Source of the DNA: Oceaniferula marina
Lineage (GTDB): Bacteria > Verrucomicrobiota > Verrucomicrobiia > Verrucomicrobiales > Akkermansiaceae
DNA: 64,000 bases
Assembly: GCF_013391475.1 (NCBI RefSeq)
Contig: NZ_JACBAZ010000008.1
Location: 62,001 to 126,000 of the forward strand
Direction: 5' to 3'
Positions 21,875 to 55,703 of this stretch are shown piece after piece; position 1 is the first letter of the stretch, and the number at the start of each line of letters is the position of its first letter. The position numbers were made by a program, and so were the translations under genes. The notes beneath the pieces are model-generated. The model was not told where the DNA came from. It saw only the letters and a list, made by a program, of their open reading frames with translations, and did not search any database.

Positions 21875-22075
21875 TACCACTCCGTAAAGCAGACGAGACG
21901 ATTGATCATTGTTGAGGTATTTGGAAAAGCACTGCGTGATCCATGAGAGTTCCGGATGAATGACTCCTTTGGCTTTGTTTCTCCTTAGTCATGGTGCCCG
22001 CACCATTCCTTCGTCGCGCCTTGCCAAAGAACTCATTCCTCTCGGCTATCGTCCCGTCTGTTTTACTCCTTGGCA
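21875..22075 (-). mobile_element. Complete MITE-like nested palindrome, family 1, with TAA duplication
   Basis: A 201-base element that, read on the minus strand, is nearly identical to the copy at 55504-55703, differing at only a handful of positions. Terminal inverted repeats are about 28 bases and imperfect, with CAGACGGGACGAT at one end against CAGACGAGACGAT at the other. Inside are nested inverted repeats and a perfect ATGGTGC-GG-GCACCAT hairpin. A direct TAA flanks both ends (21872-21874 and 22076-22078). The first is the stop codon of the upstream phosphoesterase gene. No coding capacity; it may also act as that gene's transcript end. Confidence 0.85.
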
Positions 22076-22086
22076 TAAGAAGCTGA

Positions 22087-23124
22087 TCACTTAAGGCTGC
22101 TGACTTCAATCACATCTAACTCATCCTGCATCCAATCGATGTTCGTGGTCGTGATCAATTTTTGAGCCCCGTCTGGGAGTGCCTGCATCAATGCATTTCT
22201 CCGGTCGGCATCCAGTTCACCAAAGATATCATCGAGCAGATAGACAGGCATTCGACCCGCTTGTTTTTCCAGTAGCGCACCTTGGGCAAGCTTCAGGGAC
22301 AAAGCCAGAGTCCGCTGCTGCCCTTCACTGGCAAAATCAGCTGCGGCCATTCCATTGACAGTCAGCCGAACCTCGTCCCGGTGGGGACCGGCAACCGTTT
22401 GCCCGAGGCGACGTTCGCGCTCATGAGTCATTTCAAGGCTTTTGACCATATCGTCACCCGCTCCGGCAACATACTCGAGCCCAACCCGTTCATCATTCCC
22501 ACTCACCTCTAACTGGGAATGAACCACTTCGGGTAAAAGCAATCCCACCAGCTCTCGTCTGGCCTTTGTGAGAAAACTCCCGTGCCGGATGAGCAAGTCC
22601 GTGTAAGCCGCGATCTCAGGCTCCCGCAGCACCCGGTCCTTGAGTAAGAGGTTGCGGGCCTTCAAAACCCGCTGGTATCGATTAAAATGATCGCGATAAA
22701 CAGGGTCCAACTGGCAACCAAGGAAATCGAGATAACGCCGCCGAACCCGCCCACTGCCTCGGACCAGATCAAGGTCGTCGTTCCCCATCCACACCACCAG
22801 GCCGCCACCGGCAAGATAGTCTCCCTGCTTGCCAACCACCTCATCGTCCACCTTCATTTCGACCCCCTGCCGTGCGGAAAAACGAACTTGTCGATCAGAT
22901 TGCCAACATTCACCGGCAATACCAAAACCAGGCGAATCGATCTGGATCATTTTCCCCATGCGCAGGCTGCGGGGAGAATGCAGGCGAACCAATACGCACA
23001 CGGCCTCCAAAATGGAGGTTTTCCCCTGGGCATTGGCGCCAACGATCACCGCACCCGAGGCCGGAAAGTCTACCGACATGGCGTCGAAACACCGGAAATT
23101 CATCAGTCGCAGGTTGGCAATCAT
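22087..23124 (-). CDS. recF: DNA replication and repair protein RecF
   Basis: A 345-residue SMC-like ATPase that loads RecA at single-strand gaps. Walker A is GANAQGKTS near residues 28-36; the early NLRLMNFRCF is the RecF start. The signature region ASEGQQRTLALSLKLAQ and Walker B YLLDDIFGELD come near the end, in the order expected. The start is placed at 23124. An open frame runs further upstream, but those residues are unlike RecF. A terminator lies between this gene and gpmI upstream. It is not next to dnaN or gyrB here, unlike the classical dnaA-dnaN-recF order. Confidence 0.94.
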   Translation of the reverse strand: MIANLRLMNFRCFDAMSVDFPASGAVIVGANAQGKTSILEAVCVLVRLHSPRSLRMGKMIQIDSPGFGIAGECWQSDRQVRFSARQGVEMKVDDEVVGKQGDYLAGGGLVVWMGNDDLDLVRGSGRVRRRYLDFLGCQLDPVYRDHFNRYQRVLKARNLLLKDRVLREPEIAAYTDLLIRHGSFLTKARRELVGLLLPEVVHSQLEVSGNDERVGLEYVAGAGDDMVKSLEMTHERERRLGQTVAGPHRDEVRLTVNGMAAADFASEGQQRTLALSLKLAQGALLEKQAGRMPVYLLDDIFGELDADRRNALMQALPDGAQKLITTTNIDWMQDELDVIEVSSLK

Positions 23125-23208
23125 CGCATCGTAGGACAGGTTTACAACCTGTCGGCAAGCTTTGTAAGCGATCGCCTGCGGCTTGGCAACCCACATCAAG
23201 CACGTAAC

Positions 23209-23246
23209 AAAAAAATGGCAGGTGCCAACGATGCGCACCTGCCATT
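23209..23246 (-). terminator. Rho-independent terminator of gpmI
   Basis: On the minus strand ATGGCAGGTGC pairs with GCACCTGCCAT and is followed by a run of seven Ts. It lies 26 bases after the gpmI stop and before recF, so the two genes are transcribed separately. Confidence 0.9.
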
Positions 23247-23271
23247 GATAGAAATCAATTGTTTCGTTTTC

Positions 23272-54201: not shown

Positions 54202-54291
54202 GCAAATAGCGCAAACAAACAAAATATGCGCATTGAATAAGAACCGGGATTCCTTGCTTTCCACAAGCTCCTGTGCTACATCGCCGACGTC

Positions 54292-55323
54292 ATGCCAGTA
54301 GCAACACCACAACAATACGCCGCTATGCTTGATGCCGCCCAGAAAGGTGGCTACGCATACCCCGCCATCAACGTCACCTCGATCACCACGATCAACGGTG
54401 CACTCAAAGCTTTCGCTGAATCCGGATCCGATGGAATCATTCAGGTTTCCACCGGTGGTGGATCCTTCGCCTCGGGAACTGCCGTGGCCGATGAAGCCTT
54501 CGGTGCCATCGTGCTTGCCGAAGCAACTCACCTGCTCGCCGAAAAATACGACATCCTCGTCGGCCTGCACACCGACCACTGCCACCCGCAAAAAGTCGAC
54601 GGATTCCTCCGCCCACTGCTCGAAGCCTCACGCAAGCGTATTGCCGAAGGCAAAGGACCTCTTTTCAACTCCCACATGTTCGACGGCTCCGTCGTTGAAC
54701 TCGATGAGAACCTCACCATTTCCAAAGAGCTTCTCAAGGAGTGTGCCGAGCTCGACATCATCCTCGAAATCGAAGCCGGCTGTGTCGGTGGAGAAGAAGA
54801 CGGTCACGACACCTCCGGCCTTCCAGCCGAGAAACTCTACACCTCCACCGAGGACATGATGCAGGTCTACGAAACGCTCAACAGCATCGGCCGCTTCATG
54901 TTTGCCGCCACCTTCGGTAACGTGCACGGAGCCTACAAACCCGGCTCGGTCAAACTCAAGCCAACCATCCTCCGCGACGGCCAAAATGCCGTGACCGAAA
55001 AATACGGTCCGGAAGCCGAAATGGACCTCGTGTTCCACGGAGGATCCGGATCCGACCTCTCGGACATCCGTGAAACCCTTGAATACGGTGTGGTCAAGAT
55101 GAACATCGACACCGACACCCAGTATGCCTTCACCCGCCCCATCGCGACTCACATCTGCGAAAACATCGAAGGTGTGCTGAAAATCGACGGCGAGGTTGGA
55201 AACAAAAAAGTCTACGACCCACGCGGCTACCTCAAGAAGGCCGAGCAAAGTCTCTGCGACCGCCTCAAGGAAGCTTGTGACGACCTGCTTTCCACCGGCA
55301 AGACGATCTTCGGAACCGTCTAA
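54292..55323 (+). CDS. fbaA: Class II fructose-bisphosphate aldolase
   Basis: A 343-residue zinc-dependent aldolase splitting fructose-1,6-bisphosphate. Zinc and phosphate motifs are seen: LHTDHCHPQK (His ligands), ATFGNVHGAYKPG and LVFHGGSGSD. A glycine-rich stretch near the start (STGGGSFASG) binds phosphate. The length fits the class IIA type. The gene is followed by a strong terminator 27 bases past the stop. It stands alone; upstream pstB is a separate function. Confidence 0.96.
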   Translation: MPVATPQQYAAMLDAAQKGGYAYPAINVTSITTINGALKAFAESGSDGIIQVSTGGGSFASGTAVADEAFGAIVLAEATHLLAEKYDILVGLHTDHCHPQKVDGFLRPLLEASRKRIAEGKGPLFNSHMFDGSVVELDENLTISKELLKECAELDIILEIEAGCVGGEEDGHDTSGLPAEKLYTSTEDMMQVYETLNSIGRFMFAATFGNVHGAYKPGSVKLKPTILRDGQNAVTEKYGPEAEMDLVFHGGSGSDLSDIRETLEYGVVKMNIDTDTQYAFTRPIATHICENIEGVLKIDGEVGNKKVYDPRGYLKKAEQSLCDRLKEACDDLLSTGKTIFGTV

Positions 55324-55351
55324 TTCAAGACGAAAAAGTAAAGTATTTACC

Positions 55352-55386
55352 AACACCGCAGCCGGACCGGCTGCGGTGTTTTTTTT
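55352..55386 (+). terminator. Rho-independent terminator of fbaA
   Basis: AACACCGCAGCCG-GAC-CGGCTGCGGTGTT is a 13-bp perfect stem followed by a long run of Ts. Confidence 0.95.
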
Positions 55387-55503
55387 GAGCCTAAAGCCAA
55401 GCCCATGAGGCAATGGATCAAGAGCTCACATTAAAAATGTTAAACAAACGGGAATTTTCAGCCGGCTTAACGCTCTGTGGAAGTCTCCCACGGATCGAAG
55501 TTA

Positions 55504-55703
55504 TACCAAGTAGTAAACAGACGGGACGATAGCCGAGATGAATGAGTTCTTTGGTAAGGCGCGACGAAGGAATGGTGCGGGCACCATGACTAAGGAGAAA
55601 CAAAGCCAAAGGAGTCATTCATCCGGAACTCTCATGGATCACGCAGTGCTTTTCCAAATACCTCAATAACGATCAATCGTCTCGTCTGTTTTGCGGAGTG
55701 GTA
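55504..55703 (+). mobile_element. Complete MITE-like nested palindrome, family 1, with TTA duplication
   Basis: A 200-base element from TACCAAGTAGTAAACAGACG to CTGTTTTGCGGAGTGGTA, nearly identical to the reverse complement of 21875-22075. Terminal repeats are about 28 bases and imperfect. Nested inverted repeats include GATGAATGAGTTCTTTGG against CCAAAGGAGTCATTCATC. They surround a perfect ATGGTGC-GG-GCACCAT hairpin (55572-55587). A direct TTA flanks it (55501-55503 and 55704-55706). No coding capacity. It lies between fbaA and a PEP-CTERM gene. Confidence 0.88.

Follow-up and report, generated by a model that had tools for sequence, protein, structure and literature searches.

The subject of this study is a 200-bp repeat, here called family 1, in a 64,000-nucleotide stretch of the Oceaniferula marina contig NZ_JACBAZ010000008.1 (hereafter the window; L-numbers denote loci and G-numbers genomes, G000 being the genome of this window). 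Family 1 is a miniature inverted-repeat transposable element (MITE), as it is short and free of transposase, has terminal inverted repeats, is bordered by a target duplication and occurs at dispersed loci. Its nested repeats are a strand-specific conserved fold common to families with differing ends, which was missed in the first reading of this DNA, made from the sequence alone (the original prediction). We consider it likely that the element is a non-autonomous MITE moved in trans by a TNA-duplicating subgroup of the IS630 family, with a folding core that is shared across differing ends and with selection acting at the level of the element.

Support for the fold came from covariation. A sequence-only MAFFT alignment (A1) was made of 12 of the 18 extracted elements, omitting the near-duplicates L062a, L065, L032 and L064, the chimera L074 and the divergent L038. 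Among its 57 pairs 26 had two-sided changes that preserve pairing, a number reached by 0 of 500 shuffles, and in the inner helix, outside the ends, compensatory changes were found at 15 of 19 pairs. Pairing was seen in 93.9% of the cells, as compared to 36-46% after sliding the partner. A second alignment (A3), where 41 sequences were aligned to the model and which is thus biased towards structure, gave two-sided changes at 54 of 57 pairs and 92.9% paired cells (39-46% when slid). G-U combinations were far more frequent than A-C, 46 to 6 on A1 and 151 to 25 on A3, and still 56 to 10 at pairs flanked by Watson-Crick pairs; when changes from Watson-Crick pairs were counted on a tree, 94 led to G-U and 23 to A-C. 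Such an excess is not expected of a repeat that matters only as a duplex. At the three core loops GA/GA was kept in 31, 31 and 22 of the 41 sequences, and loop 1 held two Watson-Crick pairs in 4 of 41.

The fold is also specific to one strand. With 4-base flanks, the + strand of the window element was predicted to fold at -78 kcal/mol (z -6.3, equalled by 0 of 200 shuffles), as compared to -59.2 for the - strand (z -2.96, equalled by 1 of 200), and among the 41 sequences the + strand outfolded the - strand in 36 with RNA parameters and in 38 with DNA parameters. Since the + strand is better by both sets of parameters alike, this does not distinguish RNA from single-stranded DNA.

To what level of selection the fold answers is indicated by its recent decay. 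Among 35 recent family-1 copies, 6 changes of Watson-Crick pairs led to G-U and 9 to A-C, and no pair was compensated. This 6:9 is unlike the 94:23 of the tree (Fisher p 0.002, for events that are not fully independent), which suggests that resident copies decay almost neutrally while the fold is kept over longer time. From the near-neutral decay of resident copies we infer that selection on the fold probably acts in the element and not in the host, and most simply the fold is kept up because folded elements leave more copies. The fold would then be maintained by helping the element multiply, rather than for any service that resident copies do the host.

Two other explanations bear on these data. 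Template switching between the arms (quasi-palindrome correction) can make two-sided changes in inverted repeats that have no function, and could thereby mimic compensatory change, the arms being matched by mutation instead of selection. We regard this as quite improbable, since template switching would not account for G-U outnumbering A-C on the tree or for the upkeep of mismatched GA/GA loops, and the recent copies hold no compensated pairs. Alternatively, the element could be a mobile, structured RNA that serves the host, as a regulatory or mRNA-stability element of the ERIC kind, and has spread as a MITE. This is in line with the strand-specific fold, with 29 of 43 copies having a 5' neighbouring ORF (open reading frame) of the same strand, and with the effects of ERIC and NEMIS transcripts on mRNAs that are described in part of PMC2229807. 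We nevertheless judge it improbable, because recent copies decay at 6 G-U to 9 A-C, elements in tandem gene settings lie with the gene direction in 13 cases and against it in 8, a promoter scan gave no site within the two window elements and no Rfam family was found over the scanned elements. Rfam gathering thresholds were not exceeded over any element, either in the window, for the window element at E values up to 10, or in 17 loci of relatives, and a known RNA family was therefore rejected as the identity of the scanned elements. The single Rfam match, Acido-Lenti-1 RNA (RF01687, L190:2596-2641), lies near but outside a distant family member. A small protein gene in the element was likewise ruled out, as the ORFs are short and not conserved in frame or strand (27 of 41 family members examined), in agreement with the earlier statement that no transposase is encoded.

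The copies in the window (Table 1) and elsewhere in the genome bear out most of what had been proposed on anatomy and mobility. Both the nesting of inverted repeats and the GG-looped 7-bp hairpin are present, and TTA flanks both complete copies on each side, as the direct 3-bp repeats noted at the ends. These two copies, described as near-identical, are 8 substitutions and 1 gap apart, and the truncated third copy aligns to the first 63 bases of the element (1 substitution, 2 gaps) and then ends. When up to 3 mismatches were allowed, a 20-base piece of the element matched the window at 3 sites and was absent from 100 shuffles. The arm motif, with at most 1 mismatch, has 150 sites genome-wide as compared to 1 for the reversed pattern, and at least 41 family-1 matches were obtained genome-wide (40 of 103 candidates scored). 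In the stretches read we found 51 distinct complete copies, including a subfamily of 82% identity, and they lie at dispersed loci, not at one conserved locus. Counts of this size mark the element as part of a burst. Recent movement, as originally suggested, is supported by 35 copies that are at least 94% identical to the window copy, with a mean pairwise identity of 97.4%. The ORF at 22087-23238, the end of which we take to resemble RecF, adjoins the 21875 copy.

Table 1. Features of the family-1 element and related elements in the window (positions in the 64,000-nt stretch).
Feature	Position	Strand	Remarks
Complete family-1 element	55504..55703	+	200 bp, ends TACCA...TGGTA
TTA target duplication, left of 55504 copy	55501..55503	+	
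TTA target duplication, right of 55504 copy	55704..55706	+	
Outer helix, 5' arm (terminal inverted repeat)	55504..55533	+	pairs with 55674-55703
Outer helix, 3' arm (terminal inverted repeat)	55674..55703	+	
Inner helix, 5' arm	55534..55555	+	two-sided changes at 15 of 19 pairs in A1
Inner helix, 3' arm	55605..55625	+	
Conserved core	55558..55601	+	GA/GA internal-loop motifs, closing hairpin ATGGTGC-GG-GCACCAT
Small 3-bp hairpin, 3' of core	55640..55648	+	covariation at middle pair
Complete family-1 element	21875..22075	-	201 bp, flanked by TTA at either end, lies between converging ORFs
Truncated family-1 copy	7642..7706	+	TAA at left
Complete member of second family, same fold	41298..41502	+	123 bits with model R2; TTA on both sides
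Core-less derivative of third family, ends only	7820..7925	+	TTA on both sides

The TNA duplication was confirmed, as identical TNA triplets flank 36 of 43 complete family-1 copies (TTA 18, TAA 15, TGA 2, TCA 1); in two of the remaining 7 (L010 and L029) an IS4-family element interrupts the left end. Of a further 31 elements, whose ends are of TACC or GACC type, 23 likewise had identical triplets. Nested copies within this genome, which served for the empty-site comparison, show a single triplet at the empty site. In L028 a family-1 copy is inserted at a single TTA of a member of the 41298 family, the uninterrupted sequence of which was also found; in L065 a subfamily copy lies at a TTA within a family-1 remnant; and in L073 a family-1 copy is split at a TAA by a 41298-family member, with a decayed left edge. 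In L079 two copies lie head to tail with a single TTA between them. The IS4-family element itself (L081:1047-2451, 1,405 bp, TCATTGG ends; L010:1703-2007) sits at the left end of the MITE at the target CTACTTGR, and its insertions in L081 and L010 are at the same spot of two MITE copies in opposite orientations, as if it were targeting the MITE. Among named relatives the element is present in Rubritalea profundi (4 stretches) and in Akkermansiaceae metagenome-assembled genomes (4 stretches). Neither the window element nor L110 gave a match among phages and plasmids, and 0 viral contigs had two core patterns; carriage by phage or plasmid was therefore rejected.

The orientation of the copies tends to follow GC skew, which is strong around the copies in this genome (median absolute value 0.146). 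The + (folding) strand coincides with the C-rich strand for 39 of the 51 complete copies of family 1 (p 2.0e-4), for 3 of 3 split or chimeric elements and for 58 of 77 of all structured elements tested in this genome (p 1e-5), and along contig C1 the orientation changes together with the skew (36 of 47 copies in that smaller count). Gene orientation was rejected as the cause of the bias, since genes are split evenly between the two strands relative to skew (259 to 245). At loci L322-L327 of G296, where the local GC skew is 0.22-0.36, 6 of 6 elements have the same orientation to skew. The leading strand is G-rich in most bacteria, and should the same be true in this genome, the folding strand would be under-represented on the lagging-strand template. 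The mechanism we favour, though short of probable, is linked to replication: insertion or survival would be promoted either by the folding strand forming a hairpin at the replication fork or by an insertion step tied to the fork, and the orientation bias would result. Almost as likely to us is that the fold acts as RNA in read-through transcripts and makes insertions tolerable. A replication-linked orientation is reported for several insertion sequence (IS) families, as described in a section of PMC5371812. Possibly, the bias arises by loss alone, the stronger hairpin being deleted more often when on the lagging-strand template and the fold having no role in movement; both the orientation of 39 of 51 copies and the better folding of the + strand (36 of 41 by RNA, 38 of 41 by DNA parameters) are in line with this. 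This would leave the conservation of fold and core between families unexplained, and we find it unlikely, if not markedly so.

The original prediction named the IS1031 group of the IS5 family as a candidate partner. This group makes TNA duplications, and the presence of such duplications here fits an IS5-type transposase as the mover. Our results did not support this: PF01609, the one IS5-type profile searched, matches two places in this genome, one an IS4-family element (by NCBIfam) whose ends are TCATTGG and whose duplication is 8 bp, and the other a fragment to which no class beyond PF01609 was assigned, and it is in IS630 elements of relatives that the same ends and TNA duplication are seen. 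We thus consider a mover of the IS1031 group very improbable. The search for a full IS with TACCA-type ends succeeded in part, giving IS630-family elements of about 1,149 bp in relatives from the same bacterial family and none in this genome.

Three groups of IS630 transposases, about 25% identical or without match to one another, carry ends matching those of MITEs, and those with matching ends belong to NF033545. By eye, the ends of the IS630 element L144 match those of the MITEs L118 and L113 (GTGTAGTCCG type; L113 starts inside that end), those of L142 with L108 and L109, and those of L141 with L107 (GACCGTTT types); TA flanks these IS on either side. The IS630 elements L145, L152 and L153 have TACC or TACG ends and identical TNA flanks, and within this TNA-type subgroup (A4) identical TNA flanks were found at 5 of the 9 IS with both ends traced (these three, L160 and L163). 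We compared ends over 25 positions, using the family-1 consensus left end and the window right end. L160 (1,149 bp, TAA on both sides) matched at 20 and 21 positions with its left end and at 20 and 18 with its right end, and L159 at 18-19, as compared to 6-9 for an IS4 control; L163 matched the ends of the 41298 family at 14-19. Movement in trans, as proposed earlier, is thus supported by IS630 ends and TNA duplications in relatives, and the partner would be a subgroup of the IS630 family that recognises TACCA-type ends and duplicates TNA, a candidate suggested by sequence comparison, with the transposase not found in this assembly.

DDE_3 (PF13358) has matches in 9 of the 15 genomes searched and none in G000. 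A profile built from the transposases of L145, L152 and L153 had hits in 37 of the family's 155 genomes, many of the hits fragmentary or weak, with 0 matches in G000 and 7 partial ones in G008 of the same genus. A model search of 23 IS630-type loci found the conserved core inside none of the IS; the sole match was the MITE beside L145. We take the interior of the MITE to be a conserved module, one strand of which folds into a long helix with a GA-rich core, and not a remnant of that IS. In the same locus, from G114, the IS630 element (L145:909-2055) and the MITE (L145:717-905) have TCA alone between them, resembling the pair in L079. For the 4-bp kind of element described below no autonomous partner was found, with 13 ends in G082 and 0 in G158; 12 of the 13 are 6 pairs at MITE distance and the last is at the end of a MITE match.

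The same fold extends to other families. Two further elements in the window, at 41298-41502 and 7820-7925, had not been noticed in the first reading. The latter lacks the core, and among the 40 of 72 candidates that were scored no other such element matched over its full length; 17 loci from the core-less search were scanned with R2, of which 11 hold a member of this third family with core, 4 of the 11 being cut by a contig end. R1, a covariance model built before the order-wide search, has matches in 78 of 288 genomes of the order and in 27 of 50 genera; G000, G005, G006 and G032 among the 78 are sources of its training sequences. Model R2 matches 20 of 387 genomes of the phylum, 13 of them outside the order and extending to other classes; several of these matches are partial, and the core motif is visible in L191, L193, L196 and L208. 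Around the conserved core the ends vary and so does the duplication, which may be TNA, TA or 4 bp (CTAG in L106, CTAT in L110). The same module would thus be carried by MITEs whose ends match other transposases. A chimera in L074 (1787-1988) has the left half of another family fused at the conserved core to a family-1 right half, with unequal flanks (TTA and TGA), as expected from recombination at the core. A wider proposal, that a selfish folding module in the Verrucomicrobiota borrows ends (from three IS630 groups and the 4-bp kind), swaps them at the core and spreads by a replication-linked property of the fold that is independent of the transposase, seems to us speculative and, as a whole, on the unlikely side.

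Several of our results weigh against the interpretation as a partner-driven MITE with a selected fold. Concerning the fold, 71 of 500 shuffles reached the value of A1 in a covariation measure based on further pair types. The structure used for scoring A1 came from that alignment, A3 was fitted to the same structure, and 92 of the tree-counted changes led to other mismatches. The test of recent decay comprises 15 events only, and in recent copies changes were slightly rarer at paired sites (50 of 3,920 cells) than at unpaired ones (53 of 3,115). The partner is drawn from relatives because no IS630 transposase was found in this genome; moreover L154, L155, L158 and L159, 4 of the 9 A4-type IS, are without identical flanks, the TA-type L144 also resembles family 1 at its ends (12-13 of 25, shuffle p 0.001-0.006), and L160, the closest IS by its ends, is from another genus and has a stop within its transposase frame. 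The existence of a core-less copy with clean TTA duplications indicates that the core may not be required for every jump. For orientation, other families of this genome alone gave 16 of 23 on the C-rich strand (p 0.09), eight other genomes 26 of 42 (p 0.16; 24 of 33, p 0.014, at absolute skew above 0.03, a threshold set afterwards), and G032 2 of 7.

A MITE with an IS630-type partner is an already known kind, as illustrated by RUP of Streptococcus pneumoniae, which is ascribed to IS630-Spn1 and is likewise short and non-coding, with IS630-like ends and high copy number; transcripts of RUP-like repeats are also predicted to fold (both from passages of PMC2229807). RUP is 107 bp and targets TA, whereas the present element is 200 bp, duplicates TNA and has a core that is conserved, with ends of several kinds, in both order and phylum. 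ERIC and Correia-NEMIS are likewise bacterial MITEs, with TA termini, duplications, stem-loop transcripts and reported effects at the RNA level (part of PMC2229807). The comparison was with their descriptions; for the present element, covariation, G-U excess and end change around one core were measured. Within the IS630-Tc1-mariner group it is the IS630 transposases (NF033545) that carry ends matching the MITE, which has no transposase of its own. The TA duplication usual for the IS630 family is replaced by TNA in the MITE, and pogo/Fot elements, related to IS630, have TAA duplications besides TA, as given in a portion of PMC7386202. IS200/IS605 and REP elements share the strand-specific fold and replication-linked orientation (part of PMC5371812), but unlike them this MITE has terminal inverted repeats and TNA target duplication. 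Our literature search, for which subscription journals were largely outside coverage, found no publication on this element. What seems new is a strand-specific core that is conserved across families with different ends and apparently selected in the element.

MITEs are usually viewed as gutted transposons whose interior is irrelevant. Here it is the interior that is conserved and the ends that vary. That a common core persists despite ends of different transposases points to a part played by the fold itself in spreading the element, and if the fold drives spread, this could account for the persistence of the element after loss of the transposase.

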